NCBI RefSeq assembly: GCF_003258705.1 | Contig: NZ_CP029480.1 | Span: 2,046,001 to 2,110,000, forward strand | Length of the DNA stretch: 64,000 nt | Direction: 5' to 3' | Origin: Arcticibacterium luteifluviistationis | GTDB taxonomy: Bacteria; Bacteroidota; Bacteroidia; Cytophagales; Spirosomataceae | Shown: positions 1 to 19,081 of the stretch, one piece after another | Layout of the letters: each line of letters begins with the position of its first letter | Position numbering within the stretch: position 1 is the first letter of the stretch | Position numbers and translations under genes: made by a program | The notes under the pieces: generated by a model | The model's database searches: none | Seen by the model: only the letters and a program-made list of their open reading frames with translations | Told to the model about the DNA's origin: nothing

Positions 1-796
1 TAGTATAAAGTGCAAAGTTTGAAAGAACTCCCAAAACATCAACAGCAGGAGCAGGACTACAGCCCGTTTCACAAAATATTGGGATGGTGCAAATTCCAGG
101 AGGTGGACTAACTTTAGCATCAGCTCCAGAAACAATTGCTCCTTCTAAGGTAAACATCCTACCTTCAAGCTCGGCACCTGCACCTAAACCAACAGCTCCT
201 ATATGAGCAAATAAAGTTCCTTTTAGTTTAGCACCTGCCGCAACAGAAATAGCTCCTTCGGCAATCCAAAAAACATTACAAGATTGTGCATTATTAATTA
301 AGGTGACCGTCGCATTTGCTCCCACAGTCATTGCTCCGTTATATTTAATAATAAAGAAAGCATTAGGATCTCCTTCGCCATCAAGCGTGATATTTGTCCC
401 TAAAGAGCCAGCACCAGGAATGGAATAAACGCCAGGTAGTAGAGTTTCGCCACCTCCAAATGCCGCAGCATGCGTGCCTGGAAATGTAACAAAAAGATCG
501 TTAAGATGAATATACAATCTAAATAAATCTGCCCTGGCCTGAGCAGTTACAGCATCAGCATTGTATGTGTTATCGGTAAAAGATGGTGACTGAAACCCAC
601 TCATTATTCCAATATTAGTACCCGCGTCGCCCTTCCAAGAGAGCCCTGAATTTGTAACAGCCCCTGCCCCGCTATAGCCTTCGAAAGAGCTGAGTATTCC
701 TAAACTAACTGTCCCGTTAGGTGTTTGACTAAAGCTTACTTTAGAAAATAACACTAGAGCTACAGTAGTTAAAAATAATAGTATATTTTTTTTCAT
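1..796 (-). CDS. Ice-binding family (DUF3494) secreted protein, 3' end outside the window
   Basis: Minus-strand reading frame opening at the ATG at 796 and running off the left edge (about 265 residues seen). It begins with a Sec signal peptide (MKKNILLFLTTVALVLFS, cleaved near SFSQ) followed by one DUF3494-type beta-solenoid domain: the LGILSSFEGYSGAGAVTNSG entry, a FPGTHAAAFGGGETLLPGVY stretch, the FFIIKYNGAMTVGANA core and a GAKLKGTLFAHIGAVGLGAG ladder. Close to the edge, after a Cys-rich linker (CTIPIFCETGC), the sequence VDVLGVLSNFALYT looks like the opening of a second DUF3494 unit, so the whole protein is probably a tandem-domain adhesin. Family members bind ice or act as surface adhesins; which applies here cannot be told. 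The purine-rich array lies 85 bp upstream of the start. The family assignment is firm and the activity is inferred. Confidence 0.88.
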   Translation of the reverse strand, partial: MKKNILLFLTTVALVLFSKVSFSQTPNGTVSLGILSSFEGYSGAGAVTNSGLSWKGDAGTNIGIMSGFQSPSFTDNTYNADAVTAQARADLFRLYIHLNDLFVTFPGTHAAAFGGGETLLPGVYSIPGAGSLGTNITLDGEGDPNAFFIIKYNGAMTVGANATVTLINNAQSCNVFWIAEGAISVAAGAKLKGTLFAHIGAVGLGAGAELEGRMFTLEGAIVSGADAKVSPPPGICTIPIFCETGCSPAPAVDVLGVLSNFALYT

Positions 797-880
797 TTAA
801 ATGATATTTTTGATTTCTTTTTTTTCTGGCTATAAATTAAGTTCGCTTTTATATTCTTTATAATTAGGTTAATATTAATA

Positions 881-1385
881 AGGCCACGACAGGACCAGAC
901 AAAAGGACGATTAGACCACAATAAGGGCACGATCAGACCACGACAGGACCAGACAGGACCAGACAGGGGCACGATAAGGGGACGATTAGACCACGATAAG
1001 GGCACGATAAGACCACAACAGACAGGATCACGATAAGGGCACGTTCAGACCACGACAGGACCAGACAAGGGCACGTTCAGACCACGACAGGACCAGACAA
1101 GGGCACGATCAGACCACGACAGGACCAGACAAGGGCACGATCAGACCACGACAGGACCAGACAAGGGCACGAACAGACCACGACAGGACCAGACAGGGGC
1201 ACGATAAGGGGACGATTAGACCACGATAAGGGCAAGAACAGACCACAACAGGATCAGACAAGGGCACGATTAGACCACGATAAAGGGATGATTAGACCAC
1301 GATAAAGGGACGATTAGCCACGATAAGGGGATGATTAGACCACAATAAGGGTACAATTGGCACAATAAAGGCACGATTAGGATAA
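881..1385. repeat. Phased minisatellite of 10-12 bp modules
   Basis: About 48 contiguous modules of 10-12 bp follow the pattern G(G/A)NCACGAYWA, for example GGGCACGATAA, GACCACGATAA, GGGGACGATTA, GACCACGACA and GGACCAGACAA. Between about 1036 and 1195 three modules (11+10+11 bp) form a 32-bp higher-order unit repeated five times with little change. A longer run of four modules occurs at both about 966 and 1197, so the array grew by block duplication. It is G+C-rich and purine-biased in a strongly A+T-rich setting. 32 bp is not a multiple of three and stops occur in the repeats, so it is not coding. It lies upstream of the ice-binding gene; whether it regulates that gene is unknown. Confidence 0.93.
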
Positions 1386-2538: not shown

Positions 2539-3950
2539 TTAAGCATAAATTTGACAAAGTCTAAAAAGGAAGAAACCAATACTTCTGACACCTCTGAATC
2601 TGGCCCCAAAAGCTTTGATTTTCGCATTGAAAGATTCTAAAGATTCTGCTGAAGCATTGGAGCTTCTGTTGTCAAAATAATTGAGGATAGTCTTGTAATG
2701 ATATTCAAAAGTTCTAGCTATAGAGTTGAATGATTTAAAGCCTGCTTGCCTCACCTCTTCGTGCCATTTGGCTAGTCGAGCTAGGCCATATGTACGGTCA
2801 GTGGTTTTATCATAAATCTCTGCAAGTTTAAGACCTAAGCCAAACGCCTTTTCAATATCTGGATAGCGTTCAAAAAGTAAGACGGCTCTTTCAACTTGAG
2901 ATTTTGACCAATTTGCAGGTCGCTTATAAAGGACATATCTACTTCTGGCTAAAAGTTGTTTAAGTGTATCACCATTACTTAGTATCTCAGATTTGTTGGA
3001 TAATCCTTTTATCTTCGCTAGCTCTATGGCATTACTTTCTTGGTCTAAAGCCTCCCACCTATGCTTGATTCTAATTTCTTGCACGGCATCCCAGGCTAAC
3101 TTCTGCACATGAAAGCTATCGGGGACGCTTAGTCTGTAACTCGCTTTGCCCAAGGAAATAATTTCTTGAAAGCCAATTCCATGTTAGCAGCCATGTCAAG
3201 GGTTACTTCTTTGCCACTTACACTTAGGTTCTGGGATCTTGCGTAAAACTTTCATTATATCAGCAGCTTTAGTCCCTGCGATAATGGCAACGATACTTCC
3301 TCTTTTGCCTTTTGCGGCTTTGTTGGTGAGAATAGTGTAAAGTTCTCCATCTGAAAGACTAGTTTCGTCAATAGACAAATATTCTCCCATATTTTAGGGA
3401 TAAACCAACCATTCTTTAGGCCTTCGCTTTTTTCTACAACCCTTAAAGTTACTTAGATGCTTCTTATATTGTCGCTGTAGCCTCTTTCCATTTAAACCAA
3501 ATAGTTTGCCTACGGTTTCAACATCAATGGCCCGTGTATCTATTGAATTCTTTTAAAAAAGTAGCAAACTCTGTTGTCATACGAGTTCCCTTTACTACTA
3601 ATTCAATTCCTTGCCACATTTTTTCCAGTCTCTAAATCCTTCCATTTACGACGCTTAATATGAAGGACTACTTTGTAATGGCCAACAGGAAAGTCTCTAA
3701 TTGTTATTTTATCAAAAAAGCCTTTTGAATGAAGTTTTAGATGTGATAGCTCTTTGGGTGTATCTCCTTTTCCAGTTAGATATATCCGTAATACACTCGA
3801 TACTTCATTCTTCTCGATTTTTGTTAAATCAAAGTTGTCAACCAATATTTCAGGCTGCAATAGTTTTAAAAATTCCTACGATTTTTAACTTCCTCATTTT
3901 GCCCAAAATTCAGAATTATTCTATTATCCCCGAACTTTTGCACTTGGTCC
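2506..3950 (-). mobile_element. Decayed ISAon1-type (ISL3-like) insertion sequence with both terminal repeats
   Basis: About 1.45 kb bounded by imperfect inverted repeats: GGACCAAGAGCAAAAGT at 2506-2522 and, inverted, GGACCAAGTGCAAAAGT within 3927-3950. Between them lies one broken two-part transposase. The eight bases outside each end differ, so no target duplication survives. No intact transposase is present, so the copy is dead on its own. Confidence 0.85.
2539..3860 (-). pseudogene. Broken ISAon1-family DDE transposase
   Basis: The protein is spread over several frames. The N-terminal region (3860-3603) reads through LHIKRRKWKDLETGKNVAR, then a one-base indel leads to ELVVKGTRMTTEFATFLKEF. 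A further shift gives DVETVGKLFGLNGKRLQRQY and a stop before MGEYLSIDETSLSDGELYTI (3390-3196). The LDMAANMELAFKKLFPWAKR block carrying a catalytic Asp follows, then another shift into the C-terminal third (3153-2539), with FHVQKLAWDAVQEIRIKHRW, the SFNAKIKAF catalytic region and the usual FFLFRLCQIYA end. Bacteroidota members often have a separate N-terminal ORF joined by frameshifting, but the number of breaks and the in-frame stops here show decay. Confidence 0.88.
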
Positions 3951-10697: not shown

Positions 10698-11951
10698 ATG
10701 AAATCAAACAGAAGAATTTTCTTAGGTCAATTAGGCCTAGGATTAGCCGCCCTAGAAGCCACAGGTCAAACATTAAACCCATCGAAACCTATTTCGGAAG
10801 AAGCTTTCTGGGATAATGTGAGAAAAGGTTTTCCATTAACAGACAATCGTGTTTACCTTAATAATGGAACATTTGGACCCTCTCCAAAAGTTGTGCTCGA
10901 TGCCATTAAAACATCTTTAGATAAGACAAACACCTCTGGTGAATATGGTCATACCGACGAATACAGAAAGGTCTTAGCTAAATTTGTGGGTGTTAGCGAA
11001 GAAGAAATCAGTTTGACACATAATACTACAGAAGGCATTAATATTATTTGCTGGGGACTTGACCTAAAAGAAGGGGATGAAGTAATCATCAGCTTGCATG
11101 AGCACGTAGGAAACGCATTACCTTGGCTAAATAGAGCAAAACTTCATGGAATAAAGCTTAAAACTTTTGAACCTGGAACGACGGCAGAAGAAACACTGGA
11201 CAGAATAAAAAACTTAGTGACTCCAAAAACAAAAGTTATCACGGTGCCGCACATTAGCTGTACGCTAGGCCAAGTTTATCCTGTCAAAGAAATAGCAGAT
11301 TTCGCACGTCCAAAAGGAATTTTCACGGCTATTGATGGAGCACACGGTACAGGAACTTTTGACATAAACTATAAAGAATTAGGCTGTGATAGTTACGCTA
11401 CCAGCTGCCATAAGTGGATGCTAGGGCCAAACGGCTCTGGTTTTCTATACCTAAAGAAAGAACACTTAGACCGTATTCAGGCTTACCAAGTAGGAGCTTA
11501 TTCGGATGCAGGATGGGATTTATATACCACACCTCCCTCCTTCCCTGCCTATAACCCTACAGCCCATCGATATGATTACGGTTCGCAAAGTACTCCGCTA
11601 TATGCAGGTGCTGCGGCTTCCGCCGAATATCACATGGCTTTAGGAAAAGACAAAATAGAAAAGCGAGTTAGAGAATTATCTCAACATCTATATACTGGAT
11701 TAGAAGAGCTAAATGGTTACCTAGATATTTTGACTCCAAAAGAGGTTCAGTCAAGTATATGCATGGTAACATTTAAACCAAAAAACTTAGAATATAGAGA
11801 ATTCTCCAAAAAAGCATCCAAAGCAGGATTTAGAATAAGAGTAGTACCTGAGAGTCAATTAAATGCCATCAGAATATCTACTCATATCTATAACTCAAAA
11901 GCTCAGTTAGATGATTTCCTGAAATTCACTAAAGAGGCCTTGACCACTTAG
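10698..11951 (+). CDS. Tat-exported class V aminotransferase-fold PLP enzyme
   Basis: 417 residues from the ATG at 10698; a TTG two codons earlier is possible but less likely. The N-terminus SNRRIFLGQLGLGLAA is a twin-arginine signal, so it is exported folded with its cofactor. PLP-fold motifs: NNGTFGPSPKVV, LTHNTTEGINII, the cofactor Asp in IDGAHGTG (about 212-219) and the Schiff-base Lys in SCHKWMLGPNGSG (about 239). It resembles the isopenicillin N epimerase-like and cysteine desulfurase-like branches of the fold; the substrate is unknown. Its 3' end overlaps the convergent SdpR-like gene by 4 bp. Confidence 0.87.
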   Translation: MKSNRRIFLGQLGLGLAALEATGQTLNPSKPISEEAFWDNVRKGFPLTDNRVYLNNGTFGPSPKVVLDAIKTSLDKTNTSGEYGHTDEYRKVLAKFVGVSEEEISLTHNTTEGINIICWGLDLKEGDEVIISLHEHVGNALPWLNRAKLHGIKLKTFEPGTTAEETLDRIKNLVTPKTKVITVPHISCTLGQVYPVKEIADFARPKGIFTAIDGAHGTGTFDINYKELGCDSYATSCHKWMLGPNGSGFLYLKKEHLDRIQAYQVGAYSDAGWDLYTTPPSFPAYNPTAHRYDYGSQSTPLYAGAAASAEYHMALGKDKIEKRVRELSQHLYTGLEELNGYLDILTPKEVQSSICMVTFKPKNLEYREFSKKASKAGFRIRVVPESQLNAIRISTHIYNSKAQLDDFLKFTKEALTT

Positions 11952-12253
11952 GCCACGCCTAAGCGGATTTTCGGCTTATTCAAATGTCTTGCTTGGTCAG
12001 GTTTAAACTGAACAAACCATTTAAACACTTCTTCTAAAGACCTCGTTTGAAGCGAGTAATAGATAAACTGACCTTTTTTCTTGGCTTTAATAAGGCTTGC
12101 TTGCTTTAGTAAATCCAAGTGATGAGATATACTTGGCTTTGAAATATTGAATTCGTTTGAAATTTGACCTGCGGACTTTTCTCCATCTTTTAAGATTTCA
12201 AGAATAGACCTACGGGTCTCGTCATTCAAGGCTTTGAATGTAGTGGTTATCAT
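11948..12253 (-). CDS. ArsR/SdpR-family autorepressor-like regulator
   Basis: 101 residues, almost entirely one winged helix: FKALNDETRRSILEILKDGE, then AGQISNEFNISKPSISHHLD as the recognition helix (residues about 27-47) and a wing KAKKKGQFIYYSL. No metal-binding Cys pair of the ArsR type is present; the pattern fits the SdpR autorepressor branch. A dyad-symmetric sequence lies 26 bp upstream of the start and may be its own operator. The usual SdpI-type membrane partner is not next to it. Confidence 0.88.
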   Translation of the reverse strand: MITTTFKALNDETRRSILEILKDGEKSAGQISNEFNISKPSISHHLDLLKQASLIKAKKKGQFIYYSLQTRSLEEVFKWFVQFKPDQARHLNKPKIRLGVA

Positions 12254-12278
12254 TTTTTATTTTAGGAAAGCGTTAGAA

Positions 12279-12294
12279 ATATTTAGCCAAATAT
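12279..12294. promoter_or_regulatory. Candidate operator of the SdpR-like gene
   Basis: Perfect inverted repeat ATATTT-AGCC-AAATAT, 26-41 bp upstream of the regulator's start codon. Position and symmetry fit an autorepression site; its A+T richness means chance occurrence is possible. Confidence 0.35.
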
Positions 12295-12392
12295 CGAATT
12301 AATTCATTAAAAAACAAAAAAGCTTTAAAGAGAAGCTTCCTCAAAATAGAAAAAGGCAACACAAACCATAGCTCCAAAGAAAGCATTATCAT

Positions 12393-12400
12393 TATATTTG
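12393..12400 (+). promoter_or_regulatory. Candidate -7 element of the thrA operon
   Basis: TATATTTG fits TAnnTTTG and would give a leader of about 70 nt before thrA. I saw no attenuator-like leader peptide rich in Thr or Ile codons. Confidence 0.45.
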
Positions 12401-12475
12401 CAGCCGTTTAGCTTTCCTTTATATAAATAAAGAAAAACTGAAAAATCAGTTTCAAACATTTCGAATTAAGGTAGA

Positions 12476-14935
12476 ATGAAGGTTTTAAAATTTGGCGGAA
12501 CATCTGTAGGTACTGTAGAAAGTATAAATAAGGTTCTAGCAATTATTGAGAAAAATGTATCAGAGGGTAATAAAATAGCCGTGGTTTTTTCAGCCATGGG
12601 TGGTGTTACCAATCGTTTCATAGAAATAGGCAAAATGGCTGCCGAGGAAGAAACGGAATACATGGAGCACCTTCATTCTGTAGAAGAAAGACATTTCAAT
12701 GCCATTAGAAGGCTAATTGATGTCAAACAACAAAGTGAATTGATAGCCAAGGTCAAAGTAATTTTCAATGAAATTGAAGACCTACTGCGTGGAATATCTC
12801 TAATTCAAGATATTTCTCCGCGTACCATGGACTTGCTTTTAAGTTTTGGTGAAAGACTTTCTACTACTATAATTTCTGCCACGCTTAACAAAAAAGGCAT
12901 TGATGCCACTTTTGTTGATGCAAGAAAATTGATAAAAACAGATAGTAATTTCAATAATGCTTCTGTTCAAATAGAACTTACTAACAAAAACATTCAAGAG
13001 TTTGCTGCAGAAAACAAAGGTGTGTTATGCATTACTGGTTTTGTGTCTTCAAACGACAAAGGAGTAACCACTACTTTAGGTAGAGGTGGCTCTGACTATA
13101 CGGCTTCTATTTTTGGAGCAGCTTTAAATGCAGAAATCATAGAAATATGGACTGACGTAAACGGAATGATGACTGCTGACCCAAGAAAGGTGAAAAACGC
13201 ATTCACAATTCCTGATATTTCTTATGCTGAAGCTATGGAGCTATCGCACTTTGGTGCAAAGGTGATTTATCCGCCTAGCTTAACGCCTGCGTTCTTAAAG
13301 CAAATTCCAGTTAAAGTTTTAAATACTTTTAATGCCGAACATCCAGGCACTACGGTTTCTAAAGTAAGCAGAAGCACTCCTTACTCTATTACCGGAATTT
13401 CATCTATTGATGACATTGCCTTGGTTAATTTAGAAGGAAACGGCATGATTGGCGTAGCCGGTACCTCAGCTAAGGTTTTTGGTATACTGGCTGACCATAA
13501 CATTTCAGTTATCTTTATTTCTCAGGCTTCTTCAGAGCATTCTATTTGTTTTGCGGTTAATCCTTCCGATTCTAACCAAGTAGAAACCTTATTAAATGAA
13601 GGTTTTCAGTCTGAAATAGAAAGTGGCGACATTGACAAAATCAACGTGCAGCCTCATCTATCAATCCTTGCCGTGGTAGGTGAAGGTATGAAGTCAAGCT
13701 CTGGAACATCAGGAAAGTTATTTTCTGTATTGGGACAAAACGGTATCAATGTGGTGGGAATAGCACAGGGTTCATCTGAGCTTAATATTTCGATTGTGAT
13801 AAACAGAAAAGACATAAGTAAGGCATTAAACGCCATTCATGAGCGATTCTTTGAGATTGACGGTTTTACCTTAAATGTTTTCTTGGTTGGCCCTACAGGA
13901 CTAATCGGTAAAACACTTTTAAGTCAAATTGAAAATCAAGCAGCCTACTTAAAGAAGCATAAAAACACCAATATCAAGATTGTTGGCTTAATAAATAGCC
14001 GTAAAATGATGATTGATGCCGAGGGGCTATCCTTGGAAGACTGGGAAGAAAACTTGAATGAGAATGGCGAAAAAGCTAATCTCAGTGAGTTTATTTCTGA
14101 TGTTAAGGATTTGAATTTACCAAATACCGTTTTTGTAGATTCTACAGCCAATAAGGATATTGTTCAGCATTACGCTGGAATTTTAGAAAACAATATTTCT
14201 ATTATCACACCTAATAAAGTGGCCAACTCTGGTTCTCAATTTGATTATGATAGGCTTCAAAAAATAGCCAACACCAGAAATGTCCAGTTTCTTTATGAAA
14301 CTAACGTAGGTGCTGGTTTACCAATCATTAATACGCTTCAAGGCTTGATTAATAGTGGTGATGAAATTCATCAAATTGAAGCGGTGTTATCTGGAACTTT
14401 GGCTTACATTTTCAACAACTTTGACGTAGGTAAGAAGTTTGTAGACGTGGTAAAAGAAGCGAAGGAAATGGGTTATACCGAGCCAGACCCACGAGAAGAT
14501 TTAAGTGGGATGGATGTGGCTAGAAAAATATTAATTCTGGCACGTGAGTCAGGTTTACAATTAGAGCCTAGCGATGTAGAACTAACACCTCTTTTGAGCG
14601 AAAACTGCATGGCAGCCGCTTCTGTAGAAGATTTTTACGTAGAACTTGAAAAAGAAAACGCCACTTTTGAAAAGCTTATAAACGATGCTAAAAGCAAAGG
14701 GCAGGTTTTAAGATATATAGCCAAACTTAATAAAGGTAAAGCGTCTATTGCTTTAGAAACAGTAGATAAGAATCACCCTTTTTATGCTTTAGCTGGCTCA
14801 GAAAACATTATTAGTTTTACCACCAGTAGATATAAAACAAACCCACTAGTAGTAAAAGGCCCAGGTGCAGGTGCTGAAGTAACCGCCATGGGTGTTTTTG
14901 CTGATATCATCAGTTTAAGTTCTTCATTAAATTAA
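12476..14935 (+). CDS. thrA: Bifunctional aspartokinase / homoserine dehydrogenase I
   Basis: 819 residues, the normal length for the fused enzyme. It catalyses the first and third steps from aspartate to homoserine. The aspartokinase domain (1 to about 290) opens with VLKFGGTSVG and contains TTLGRGGSDYTASIFG and EIWTDVNGMMTADPR. Two ACT regulatory domains follow (about 310-460; VNLEGNGMIGVAGTSAKVFG, LAVVGEGMKSSSGTSGKLFS). Homoserine dehydrogenase starts near 465 (VFLVGPTGLIGKTLL) with the catalytic block TNVGAGLPIINTLQGLINSG and YTEPDPREDLSGMDVARKIL. The ACT domains imply threonine feedback, as in the E. coli enzyme. First gene of an operon with thrB 12 bp downstream. Confidence 0.97.
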   Translation: MKVLKFGGTSVGTVESINKVLAIIEKNVSEGNKIAVVFSAMGGVTNRFIEIGKMAAEEETEYMEHLHSVEERHFNAIRRLIDVKQQSELIAKVKVIFNEIEDLLRGISLIQDISPRTMDLLLSFGERLSTTIISATLNKKGIDATFVDARKLIKTDSNFNNASVQIELTNKNIQEFAAENKGVLCITGFVSSNDKGVTTTLGRGGSDYTASIFGAALNAEIIEIWTDVNGMMTADPRKVKNAFTIPDISYAEAMELSHFGAKVIYPPSLTPAFLKQIPVKVLNTFNAEHPGTTVSKVSRSTPYSITGISSIDDIALVNLEGNGMIGVAGTSAKVFGILADHNISVIFISQASSEHSICFAVNPSDSNQVETLLNEGFQSEIESGDIDKINVQPHLSILAVVGEGMKSSSGTSGKLFSVLGQNGINVVGIAQGSSELNISIVINRKDISKALNAIHERFFEIDGFTLNVFLVGPTGLIGKTLLSQIENQAAYLKKHKNTNIKIVGLINSRKMMIDAEGLSLEDWEENLNENGEKANLSEFISDVKDLNLPNTVFVDSTANKDIVQHYAGILENNISIITPNKVANSGSQFDYDRLQKIANTRNVQFLYETNVGAGLPIINTLQGLINSGDEIHQIEAVLSGTLAYIFNNFDVGKKFVDVVKEAKEMGYTEPDPREDLSGMDVARKILILARESGLQLEPSDVELTPLLSENCMAAASVEDFYVELEKENATFEKLINDAKSKGQVLRYIAKLNKGKASIALETVDKNHPFYALAGSENIISFTTSRYKTNPLVVKGPGAGAEVTAMGVFADIISLSSSLN

Positions 14936-14947
14936 GTCAAAAATATC

Positions 14948-15880
14948 TTGTCAGAAAGTATCAAAATATTTGCTCCAGCCACTGTGGCAAACGTATCGTG
15001 CGGCTTCGACATTTTCGGTTTGGCTGTTGATAATCCTGGTGACGAAGTCATTCTAACCAAAAGAAATGACAACAAAATAGTCATTAAGGAAATTACGGGT
15101 GACGAAGGAAAACTTACCTACGACCCAGAGAAGAACACCGTTTCTGTACCAATACTTAGATATTTAGATAAGATTCAAAATAAGACAGGTTTTGACATTA
15201 TTTTGAACAAGAAAATGCCTCTGGGCAGCGGTCTTGGCAGTAGCTCTGCCAGCTCTGTTGCCGGTGTTTTTGCAGCGAATGAATTACTAAACAATCCACT
15301 AGAAATAAGCGACTTACTTCCATTTAGTATGGAAGGAGAACGCATAGCTTGTGGAGCGGCACATGCCGACAATGTAGCCCCTGCCCTATTGGGTGGTTTT
15401 GTAATTATCAGAAGTTACGAACCATTAGATTTTATCAAAATCAATACCCCAGACGAACTTTACGTCAGCATTGTTCATCCAGATTTGGAGGTCAATACAA
15501 AAGATGCACGTATCATTCTTAGGCAAGAAGCTATCTTAAAAAAGATTATAGCCCAAACAGGAAATGTAGCAGGAATGGTGGCTGGACTTATGAGTTCTAA
15601 TTATGGACTAATAGGGCGTTCTATGACCGACTATTTAGTGGAACCAAACAGAGCCATACTTATACCTTACTTTAATGAGGTTAAACAAGCTGCTTTAGAA
15701 ACAGGTGCTTTAGGTGCTAGTATTTCTGGAGCGGGTCCTTCTATTTTTGCTTTTAGCCAAGGCAAAGAAATGGCTGATAAAGTGGGACAAGCTATGAAAG
15801 CCGTATTTACAGCTGCCAATATAAACACTAACCTGTTTGTTTCAGGTGTCAACCAAAATGGTCCTAGAATATTGGACTAA
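14948..15880 (+). CDS. thrB: Homoserine kinase
   Basis: 310 residues from a TTG start (SESIKIFAPATVANVSCGFD). A GHMP-family kinase that phosphorylates homoserine with ATP on the way to threonine. The ATP-binding loop PLGSGLGSSSASS is at residues 91-103, ERIACGAAHADNVAPALLGG follows, and the C-terminal GHMP motif is ALGASISGAGPSIFAF. Cytoplasmic, co-transcribed with thrA. thrC, often third in this operon, is absent; a GNAT gene follows instead. Confidence 0.96.
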   Translation: MSESIKIFAPATVANVSCGFDIFGLAVDNPGDEVILTKRNDNKIVIKEITGDEGKLTYDPEKNTVSVPILRYLDKIQNKTGFDIILNKKMPLGSGLGSSSASSVAGVFAANELLNNPLEISDLLPFSMEGERIACGAAHADNVAPALLGGFVIIRSYEPLDFIKINTPDELYVSIVHPDLEVNTKDARIILRQEAILKKIIAQTGNVAGMVAGLMSSNYGLIGRSMTDYLVEPNRAILIPYFNEVKQAALETGALGASISGAGPSIFAFSQGKEMADKVGQAMKAVFTAANINTNLFVSGVNQNGPRILD

Positions 15881-15889
15881 CACAGTTCA

Positions 15890-16408
15890 ATGATTACATA
15901 TCGCGAAGCCTTACCGTCTGATTACAAAGAAATAGCTCTAATACATGCTGCCAGCTGGAAAAAGCACTACAAAGGTATATTACCAGACAGTTGCCTAGAC
16001 GATAAGTTAGAGAGTGACAGATTAGAAATCTGGAAAAGCAGATTTGCTGAAAATAATCCGAATCAAAACGTAATATTGGCAGAAGATGAAGGCCAAATTA
16101 TAGGATTTGCGTGCACTTACCTACATCATAAATCTGGACATGGTTCTTTGCTTGATAATCTACACGTTCTTGCTACGCATCAAGGAAAGAGTATTGGTTT
16201 AACCTTAATGCAAAAGGCCTTTGATTGGGCAAAGAACTACGCACCTACTGAAAACCTTTTCTTAACGGTACTCTCTGAAAATGAATTGGCCAAAGGCTTT
16301 TACTATAAAATAGGTGGTACTTTGGAAGAAGAATACATGGAGGAGTTCCCAAAAGGAAATAGTATTTTAGTACAACGAATCTCTTGGAATAAAAGACCTA
16401 CCCTATGA
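15890..16408 (+). CDS. GNAT-family N-acetyltransferase
   Basis: 172 residues. N-terminal YREALPSDYKEIALIHAASW, central VILAEDEGQIIGFACTYLHH strand and the acetyl-CoA loop LHVLATHQGKSIGLTLMQKA (a Q-x-x-G-x-S variant of the usual pattern, residues about 100-120), then the EN.LAKGFYYKIGG helix typical of the fold. The acceptor is unknown. It is 9 bp after thrB and overlaps the next gene by 4 bp (ATGA), so it is part of the thr operon, but nothing ties its substrate to threonine. Confidence 0.88.
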   Translation: MITYREALPSDYKEIALIHAASWKKHYKGILPDSCLDDKLESDRLEIWKSRFAENNPNQNVILAEDEGQIIGFACTYLHHKSGHGSLLDNLHVLATHQGKSIGLTLMQKAFDWAKNYAPTENLFLTVLSENELAKGFYYKIGGTLEEEYMEEFPKGNSILVQRISWNKRPTL

Positions 16409-17508
16409 TAAAGAAAATAATAGCCCTCCTACTCCTTTGTGTATATTTCAAGACTGCAGTGGCACAAAAAGAACCTATGAAAATAGCGGTGGCAGGTTTG
16501 ACGCATACGCATGTTCATTGGGTATTACAAAGAGCTAGTGACGGCGACTTCGACTTAGTTGGCGTAGCCGAACCAAACAAAGAACTCGCTGAAAGGTTTT
16601 TCAAACAGTATAATCTACCGCTAGATATACTTTTTGAGGACATTGACTCGATGCTGGAAAATACAAATCCAGAAGCTATTTGTGCTTTCAATACCATCAG
16701 AGGGCATTTGGAAGTGGTAGAAAAAGCCGCTCCAAAAGGAATACACGTTATGGTGGAAAAGCCTTTGGCAGTAAATTTAGACCATGCCAGAAAAATGGAA
16801 GCTTTGGCTAAAAAGCATCAAATTCAGCTTTTGACCAATTATGAAACCACCTGGTATCCTACCAACCATAAAATCAAAGAAATTTTAGCTGAAGAAAAAG
16901 AAACCTTTGGTCAAATAAGGAAAATGGTAATTCATGACGGGCACCCTGGCCCTCAGGAAATAGGTTGTAATATAGAATTTTTAACATGGCTTACAGACCC
17001 TTATTATAATGGTGCAGGAGCATTGACAGACTTTGGCTGCTACGGTGCAAACCTTTCTACTTGGTTACACCCAAATGAAAAGCCAATAAGTGTGACTGCT
17101 GTAACACATCAATTTAAACCACACATTTATCCTTTAGTAGATGATGAAGCCACCATCATAGTTACTTATCCTAATTCGCAGAGTATTATTCAGGCAAGTT
17201 GGAACTGGAATTACAACAGAAAAGACATGGAGGTTTATACCGAAAAAGGCTTTCTAAAAGCGAATACGAGGCATGAACTAGAAATTATGAAAAACGAAAA
17301 GGATGGTTCTAAGGAATATATGCTAGAAGAAAGAGCAGCTCCTTTTAATGACCCTTTTTCATATATGATGGCTGTCATTAGGAATGAAGCGAAAATGTCA
17401 AAGTCGGATTTATCTAGTTTAGAAAATAATATGACTGTGATGGAAATATTGCAAGCCGCTATGATTTCAGCTAAAGAAGGGAGGACGGTAAACTTGACAG
17501 AACTTTAG
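16405..17508 (+). CDS. Exported Gfo/Idh/MocA-family oxidoreductase
   Basis: 367 residues. A Sec signal peptide (MIKKIIALLLLCVYFKTAVA, cut before QKEP) precedes a Rossmann domain whose usual GxGxxG loop reads AVAGLTHTHV. The family's EKP motif is at 118-120 (VMVEKPLAVNLDHARKME), followed by the C-terminal alpha/beta domain with GGALTDFGCYG-like YNGAGALTDFGCYG. Relatives use NAD(P) to oxidise sugars or related polyols. A Sec-exported member without a Tat signal is odd because the nucleotide cofactor would have to be acquired outside the cytoplasm. Last gene of the thrA operon; converges on the PAP2 gene with a 4-bp overlap. Confidence 0.85.
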   Translation: MIKKIIALLLLCVYFKTAVAQKEPMKIAVAGLTHTHVHWVLQRASDGDFDLVGVAEPNKELAERFFKQYNLPLDILFEDIDSMLENTNPEAICAFNTIRGHLEVVEKAAPKGIHVMVEKPLAVNLDHARKMEALAKKHQIQLLTNYETTWYPTNHKIKEILAEEKETFGQIRKMVIHDGHPGPQEIGCNIEFLTWLTDPYYNGAGALTDFGCYGANLSTWLHPNEKPISVTAVTHQFKPHIYPLVDDEATIIVTYPNSQSIIQASWNWNYNRKDMEVYTEKGFLKANTRHELEIMKNEKDGSKEYMLEERAAPFNDPFSYMMAVIRNEAKMSKSDLSSLENNMTVMEILQAAMISAKEGRTVNLTEL

Positions 17509-18087: not shown

Positions 18088-18972
18088 TTAAAGGAATCCT
18101 TCAGCCTTCATAGCCTCTTCTAAAAGTACCCCTAAACCCTCGCTAGCTTCTATTAATGGAAGTCTAACACGAGCGTGTGAAATACCTCTTATCTCACATA
18201 CTTTCTTAATTCCTACAGGATTTGACTCTCTGTAAAGTAAGTCGTCGAAAATATGAAAGCGTCTTTGTAAAGTAGCAGATGCTTTAAAATCACCATTTAA
18301 AGCGGCCCAAGTCATTTCATGAAACTCCTTTGGAAAACCATTCGCTATTACAGAAATAACACCTTGGTAGCCCAAAGAAACTTGAGGTGTAACCAAATTA
18401 TCATCTCCCGATAACAAAAGAAAATCAGCTGGTACTCTTTTGCTTAAATCAATGGCTTGGTCCATAGATGTAGACGCATCTTTAAGAGCAATCACATTTG
18501 GGTGAGCAGACAAGGCAATTGTGGTATCAACACTTATAGCCGTTACAGTTCTTCCTGGAACGTTATATAAAATAACCGGAACAGGACATGCATCAGCAAT
18601 GGCAGTAAAGTGAGCTATAATACCAGCTTGAGAAGGTTTATTATAATATGGGCAAACAGACAAAATAGCGTCAACACCATCAAAGTTTGTCTTTGAAATG
18701 TTTTCTAAAATTTGAGCTGTATTATTACCTCCCAAACCATACACTATCGGTAAGTTTTTAGGATTATTTGCTTTAGAAAAGGCTAATAGTTCTGCTTTTT
18801 CAGAAAGAGTAGTAGTTGCCGACTCACCCGTAGTACCATTTACCACTAAGTAATCACAACCTTCCTCCGAAACGTAGGTTATCAGTTTTTTCAAAGATTC
18901 AAAATCAATGCTTAAATCTTCTTTAAATGGAGTGATTAGGGCAGCTCCAACACCTCTTAAATTCTTGCTCAT
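18088..18972 (-). CDS. dapA: 4-hydroxy-tetrahydrodipicolinate synthase
   Basis: 294 residues from the ATG at 18972 (MSKNLRGVGAALITPF); a longer frame begins at 19017, but its first 15 residues are not typical of the family. It condenses pyruvate with aspartate semialdehyde, committing it to lysine and diaminopimelate. Seen: the NGTTGESATTTL loop, the catalytic Tyr in PVILYNVPGRT, the Schiff-base Lys in NVIALKDAST and SGDDNLVTPQ. The product of aspartokinase upstream in this window feeds it. The PAP2 gene follows immediately. Confidence 0.95.
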   Translation of the reverse strand: MSKNLRGVGAALITPFKEDLSIDFESLKKLITYVSEEGCDYLVVNGTTGESATTTLSEKAELLAFSKANNPKNLPIVYGLGGNNTAQILENISKTNFDGVDAILSVCPYYNKPSQAGIIAHFTAIADACPVPVILYNVPGRTVTAISVDTTIALSAHPNVIALKDASTSMDQAIDLSKRVPADFLLLSGDDNLVTPQVSLGYQGVISVIANGFPKEFHEMTWAALNGDFKASATLQRRFHIFDDLLYRESNPVGIKKVCEIRGISHARVRLPLIEASEGLGVLLEEAMKAEGFL

Positions 18973-19081
18973 AAAATTGCGGCTTCCAATGATATTAGAA
19001 GCCGCAAAATACGTCAATTAATTGCACTTAATAAAGGAGAAAACGCTTTTAATGAAGGTACCTTTTGACTGAAGACTGATA

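Follow-up and report, generated by a model that had tools for sequence, protein, structure and literature searches.

A single-copy minisatellite of 10-11 bp modules upstream of an ice-binding protein gene in Arcticibacterium luteifluviistationis

The window, by which we mean the whole stretch of 64,000 nucleotides of Arcticibacterium luteifluviistationis DNA that was analysed (contig NZ_CP029480.1, positions 2,046,001 to 2,110,000), begins with the 5' part of a minus-strand gene of 1085 amino acids, which occupies positions 1..796 with its start codon at 796 and continues beyond the window (L002:5539-8796). Its product contains two Ice_binding domains (DUF3494, PF11999) and three DUF7507 stretches. 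On the upstream side of this gene there is an AT-rich gap of 84 bp (797..880, minus strand, 17% GC), followed by a tandem array of 505 bp at 881-1385, built from modules of 10-11 bp, about 46 in number, and given no strand of its own. The array is thus found 84-589 bp before the start codon, in agreement with the position given in the original prediction, a description of this DNA made from the sequence alone. Further along, at 2539..3153 on the minus strand, an ISL3-type transposase (PF01610) has left a remnant, which is separated from the array by about 1.2 kb. The array occupies a non-coding location, with the gene start at 796 on one side and this insertion-sequence remnant on the other. 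ISL3-type transposase sequence is present in pieces across 2539-3390, and this region to the right of the array has diverged partial copies elsewhere in the genome, with 72-83% identity in the four longest.

The repeat is real, as two approaches show. Tandem Repeats Finder reported seven rows in the entire 64-kb window, all of them inside 884-1380, with periods of 10, 11, 21, 22, 32, 43 and 64, while the array has autocorrelations of 0.52, 0.48, 0.56 and 0.54 at lags 11, 22, 32 and 64, respectively, values that none of 2000 first-order Markov sequences reached (maximum 0.38). The array also differs from its surroundings in composition, its GC content of 52.5% being higher than that of the window (37.6%), the right flank (30%) and the left flank (17%). 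Its plus strand consists of 39% A, 28% G, 24% C and only 8.5% T, giving 67% A+G. The richness in G+C and purines that had been claimed for it is therefore borne out by the figures, although the strand is better described as T-poor and A-rich than as polypurine.

Segmentation against six prototypes yielded 48 modules, two of which are ragged ends, leaving 46. The length is 11 bp in 34 modules and 10 bp in 10; the remaining four deviate from both, and the ragged ends account for two of them. Their order, in prototype letters, is FABEDCAABFEDFAFCABCABCABCABCABFEDCABEDEDEDEDEFFE. The earlier count of about 48 modules is reproduced here if the ragged ends are included, but the CACGA-like core assigned to them is less regular than it was made out to be: exact CACGA occurs 22 times in the array, more than half of the modules lack it, and runs of exact cores at 10-12 bp spacing comprise two in succession at most. 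All 46 modules (46 of 46) have A in column 3, and columns 2, 4, 5, 6 and 10 are well kept. Such conservation could reflect constraint, but a recent common origin of the modules, together with a segmentation that was fitted to prototypes, also explains it.

Above the level of single modules there are several larger units. The centre of the array (1039..1198, no strand assigned) is made of five tandem 32-bp trimers of the type CAB (11+11+10), the third module of which is either CCAGACAAGG or CCAGACAGGG. Trimers 1 and 2 are identical, as are trimers 3 and 4, whereas the fifth departs from these by two to three bases. The variants are thus common to neighbours (GTT,GTT / GAT,GAT / GAA), which is the pattern expected of local tandem duplication. 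The right side consists mostly of 22-bp dimers (ED, of the GGACGATTAGA + CCACGATAAGG types; 1264..1350, no strand assigned), which are more variable and lower in GC than the centre, the GC fraction being 0.60 in the trimer zone versus 0.43 at the right edge of the array. In addition, a block of 53 bp is present in two identical copies 230 bp apart, at 952..1004 and 1182..1234 (neither assigned to a strand). Both the trimeric units and a longer duplicated block had been anticipated, and both are confirmed. In general, neighbouring units are more alike than distant ones, as seen in the table of trimer identities and in the 53-bp duplicate.

A coding repeat can be ruled out, since all six frames are closed, with 4-9 stops in each and no open frame through the array. 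A mechanically called ORF of 70 amino acids on the minus strand (793-1005) runs out of the left end of the array. Folding was no better than in shuffled sequences, either for the gene-strand RNA (z +1.5) or for the plus-strand DNA (z +0.9), which rules out both a structured leader RNA and an array of DNA hairpins.

We then asked how widely the array is distributed. Within the 5.38-Mb genome of the same organism, BLAST returned one match, the array itself, and no second copy; of 19 two-core matches with up to one mismatch, 16 are inside the array and three are isolated. Scattering of the array over the genome, which the original prediction had named as counting against its reading, is thus not what is observed, the array being single-copy. 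Among 390 sampled genomes of the order the only one to match was its own, in a collection where the genus is represented by that genome alone. At the level of the class, four of 395 genomes matched at E 0.01, its own included, and the other three matches are 29-35 bp long and have no 10-12 bp array at them. The two-module pattern was found in three of 395 genomes (again including its own) versus four for a backwards control. The class thus shows no enrichment of the motif, and a class-wide element is ruled out. An origin from a phage or a plasmid is also rejected, as plasmid and phage records contained no match to the array; a looser scan of viral sequences gave 39 stretches, three of them in arrays of at least 44 bp. 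When 0.8 Mb of its own genome (40 stretches) and 0.4 Mb from nine relatives (20 stretches) were searched at score 50, no further array with a period of 9-12 was reported, which, over the 1.2 Mb sampled, indicates that the array is rare in its lineage.

Tandem repeats of other kinds were encountered. The same genome contains, at L189:14684-15201 (G000:C1:2124684-2125201), an unrelated non-coding array of 518 bp with 55-bp units, which has stops in all six frames and whose units contain GTCCCTAACGGGAC-like palindromes. Locus L108 has three tandem repeats, at 11865-14007 (237 bp x 9), 15463-16958 (300 bp x 5) and 18193-18981 (357 bp x 2.2), with units that are all multiples of three. Judging by coordinates, the 357-bp repeat is inside the ice-binding gene considered here, and the 300- and 237-bp repeats are in the two reading frames next to it. 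Taken together, the L189 array and the L108 repeats indicate that tandem growth is not peculiar to the site of the array.

We also examined whether such arrays accompany ice-binding genes elsewhere. An Ice_binding domain was matched in 53 genomes (its own included) when 291 from the order were sampled. We used the 30 best-scoring loci of relatives from this one sampled search, which is not a random draw and in which only L095, L096 and L099 belong to the family of the organism studied here. The start, taken as the first ATG of the frame, was found in all 30, the strand of each was checked, and the DNA available before it amounted to at least 600 bp in 26 loci and to 414-429 bp in the other four. 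None of the 30 has such an array before its ice-binding gene. The largest repeat of 9-12 bp before these starts, at score 30, has 3.1 copies, and when the whole 2.4-3.6 kb of each locus was searched for periods 10-12 at score 50, the sole row was a 12-bp repeat of 2.7 copies in L097, which is on the far side of the upstream region of the start or within the gene frame and is no long array. In the loci examined, then, the array is no companion of the ice-binding gene family.

Similar arrays were also sought irrespective of the gene beside them. A 24-base two-module pattern matched 55 stretches from several phyla in a species collection; the organism's own genome is not among the matches, and may have been left out of that collection. 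Of these, 20 are in arrays of at least 44 bp, seven in arrays of at least 60 bp and one in an array of at least 100 bp, figures that lean towards period 11, since the pattern fixes two 11-bp steps. Some of the 14 stretches that were viewed fall inside reading frames. The 30 loci served to build a profile that finds the window's own gene at E 1e-74; it detected no ice-binding domain in the DNA available for the 55 stretches (4953 translated segments). A link between the array and DUF3494 genes in other genomes is thus seen neither in the 30 loci of relatives nor in the 55 motif-bearing stretches.

The nearest in kind is L056:1548-1889, from a Tannerellaceae bin, an array of 342 bp with 11-bp units that is T-poor too (A 55%, T 10%) and lies about 540 bp before a gene resembling, by eye, a NAD-dependent DNA ligase. 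Six Bacteroidales bins, mostly Paludibacteraceae, each have between one and four sites that match the two-core pattern, in units such as CACGATGAGGT, although these bins were chosen for having matches and the counts are no measure of frequency. Bacteroidales bins, mostly of gut Paludibacteraceae (L047, L060, L067 and L069, as well as L020, L035, L061 and L064), also contain extra short arrays of 10-11 bp, whose units (GCGCAAAGGTA, CTGCTTCTTAT, GTTGTGTAGCG and GTTATTCGTAG) are unrelated and occur beside the TGAGGTCACGA unit for which the scan selected them. The 11-bp arrays of unrelated bacteria would be independent minisatellites.

All in all, the array is most probably a private, non-coding intergenic minisatellite that grew by local duplication, and its position in front of the ice-binding gene is most likely a coincidence. 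The original unit, some 11 bp long (roughly gCACGAtaaGa), would have multiplied in place, by replication slippage, unequal exchange or both. Growth would have proceeded through units of 11 bp and 22 bp and through trimers of 32 bp, and a block of at least 53 bp would have been duplicated once or more. The uniform centre and more varied edges fit continuing turnover in the middle. The order of these steps, the slippage or recombination behind them and the lack of a function are what we infer. The array lengthens the intergenic region by a spacer of about 0.5 kb. Of the three roles that the original prediction had suggested, simple slippage DNA is the one best supported.

An unlikely alternative is that the array acts as a length-variable switch, in which copy number shifts either the distance between a control site and the promoter or the length of the leader, thereby tuning expression of the ice-binding gene. 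The array does lie on the upstream side of that gene, 84 bp from its start codon, and a leader may cross it. On the gene strand, the motif TAnnTTTG, which we take to be the Bacteroidota -7 consensus, does not occur with up to one mismatch between array and start (797..880). With the same tolerance there are eight occurrences in 797-1900, and the sole one that has a TTG upstream, at roughly the appropriate spacing, is at about 1683, beyond the array. A leader starting there could cross the array, and the gene strand of the array has no ATG, as would suit an untranslated leader. These hints are weak and within chance. Exact TAnnTTTG occurs eight times in the 3.5 kb of L001 versus 4.0 expected, and on the gene strand not at all between 797 and 2125 of the window; a sigma-70 scan of 700-2300 gave three promoter-like sites versus 4.4 expected, with none between array and gene, and no terminator signals were found in that same interval. 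Imperfect repeats usually have lower slippage rates, and those of the array are imperfect; the lack of any such array at the 30 ice-binding loci of relatives also argues against a switch. In other bacteria, repeats in promoters do alter expression, according to two reports (PMC3899988, PMC12817950).

Even less probable is a combined scheme, in which an oligomeric protein would bind the modules cooperatively, one in-phase block of about ten modules at a time, with ice-binding expression set between strains by 32-bp trimers being gained or lost. Binding by itself we consider very improbable. Here an oligomeric regulator or a nucleoid protein would bind successive 11-bp modules on one face of the helix; the original prediction had listed a phased protein-binding platform among the possible roles and held that all cores would face one side. 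Module starts have a mean spacing of 10.79 bp and a best-fit period of 10.85, and when overlapping blocks of ten modules are considered, coherence is 0.82-0.95 in six of seven; the seventh, which spans an irregular step near 1012-1028, has 0.27. Over the whole array, in contrast, coherence is 0.42 at 10.5 bp per turn and the cumulative drift reaches 14.5 bp, more than one turn. With a mean spacing of 10.8 bp, phase is kept only inside blocks of about ten modules, and the cores face one side locally but not across the array. A regulator of this general type is known, as CarH binds tandem 11-bp direct repeats on one face (PMC9304148), yet its TnnACA element is absent from the array. Phased curvature is not expected either, since a wedge model predicts unusually straight DNA: the predicted end-to-end ratio of the array is 0.96, whereas 300 Markov sequences average 0.76 and all of them, like all window tiles tested, stay below the value of the array, and even the most bent 125-bp piece would be straighter than 96% of Markov sequences. 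The idea of a phased binding platform is thus weakened by the loss of phase over the array, by the absence of the exact core from more than half of the modules and by the lack of a second copy or of a sampled relative that carries it. Position and local phase make up all the positive evidence for these two possible roles, switch and platform.

That the array is part of a mobile element, either a MITE carrying a minisatellite or the end of an insertion sequence, is barely credible: an ISL3 transposase remnant does lie in the vicinity and a minisatellite-bearing MITE, BrickBuilt, is known from Porphyromonas gingivalis (PMC4596501), but there are no inverted repeat pairs in 700-1700, the longest exact inverted match between the flanks is an AT-rich one of 8 bp, and the array is single-copy whereas diverged partial copies of the DNA on its right occur elsewhere in the genome.

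If the array is an ordinary minisatellite, as we favour, it mainly warns against reading helical phasing or function from an 11-bp period alone. Should strains differ in its length, it would make a handy strain marker. It would have a wider importance only if expression depended on array length, in which case an ice-binding protein would be under a fast-mutating control.

We found no description of this array in the open-licence literature. The original prediction stated that it knew of no described element with this layout, which is too strong as regards the kind of element, since BrickBuilt (PMC4596501) and the CarH operators (PMC9304148) are published, although neither matches the array. 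In general terms, bacterial minisatellites, or VNTRs, are tandem repeats whose unit exceeds about ten bases (PMC3899988). Like intergenic minisatellites, the array is head-to-tail and non-coding, with higher-order units, a uniform centre and more varied edges; it differs in being the sole array of its period found in the genome sample. A more specific comparison is offered by Porphyromonas gingivalis, which also belongs to the Bacteroidota. BrickBuilt is a multi-copy 23-nt minisatellite within a MITE that carries a leader, a tail and small inverted-repeat ends (PMC4596501). The array resembles it in being intergenic and without spacers, and the 23-nt unit is about the size of two array modules; on the other hand, the array is single-copy and has none of the leader, tail or inverted-repeat ends reported there. 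The operators of CarH are tandem 11-bp direct repeats of the form nnnnTnnACAn, bound on one face of the DNA, and the sites have three to five repeats and overlap promoter elements (PMC9304148). The array shares with them an 11-bp unit upstream of a gene, but it has about 46 modules, and TnnACA occurs zero times on both strands. Finally, the array has in common with the promoter repeats of Mycobacterium tuberculosis that it is a tandem repeat upstream of a gene, but the units of the latter are 54-58 bp long, are themselves promoter elements and vary between strains (PMC12817950).
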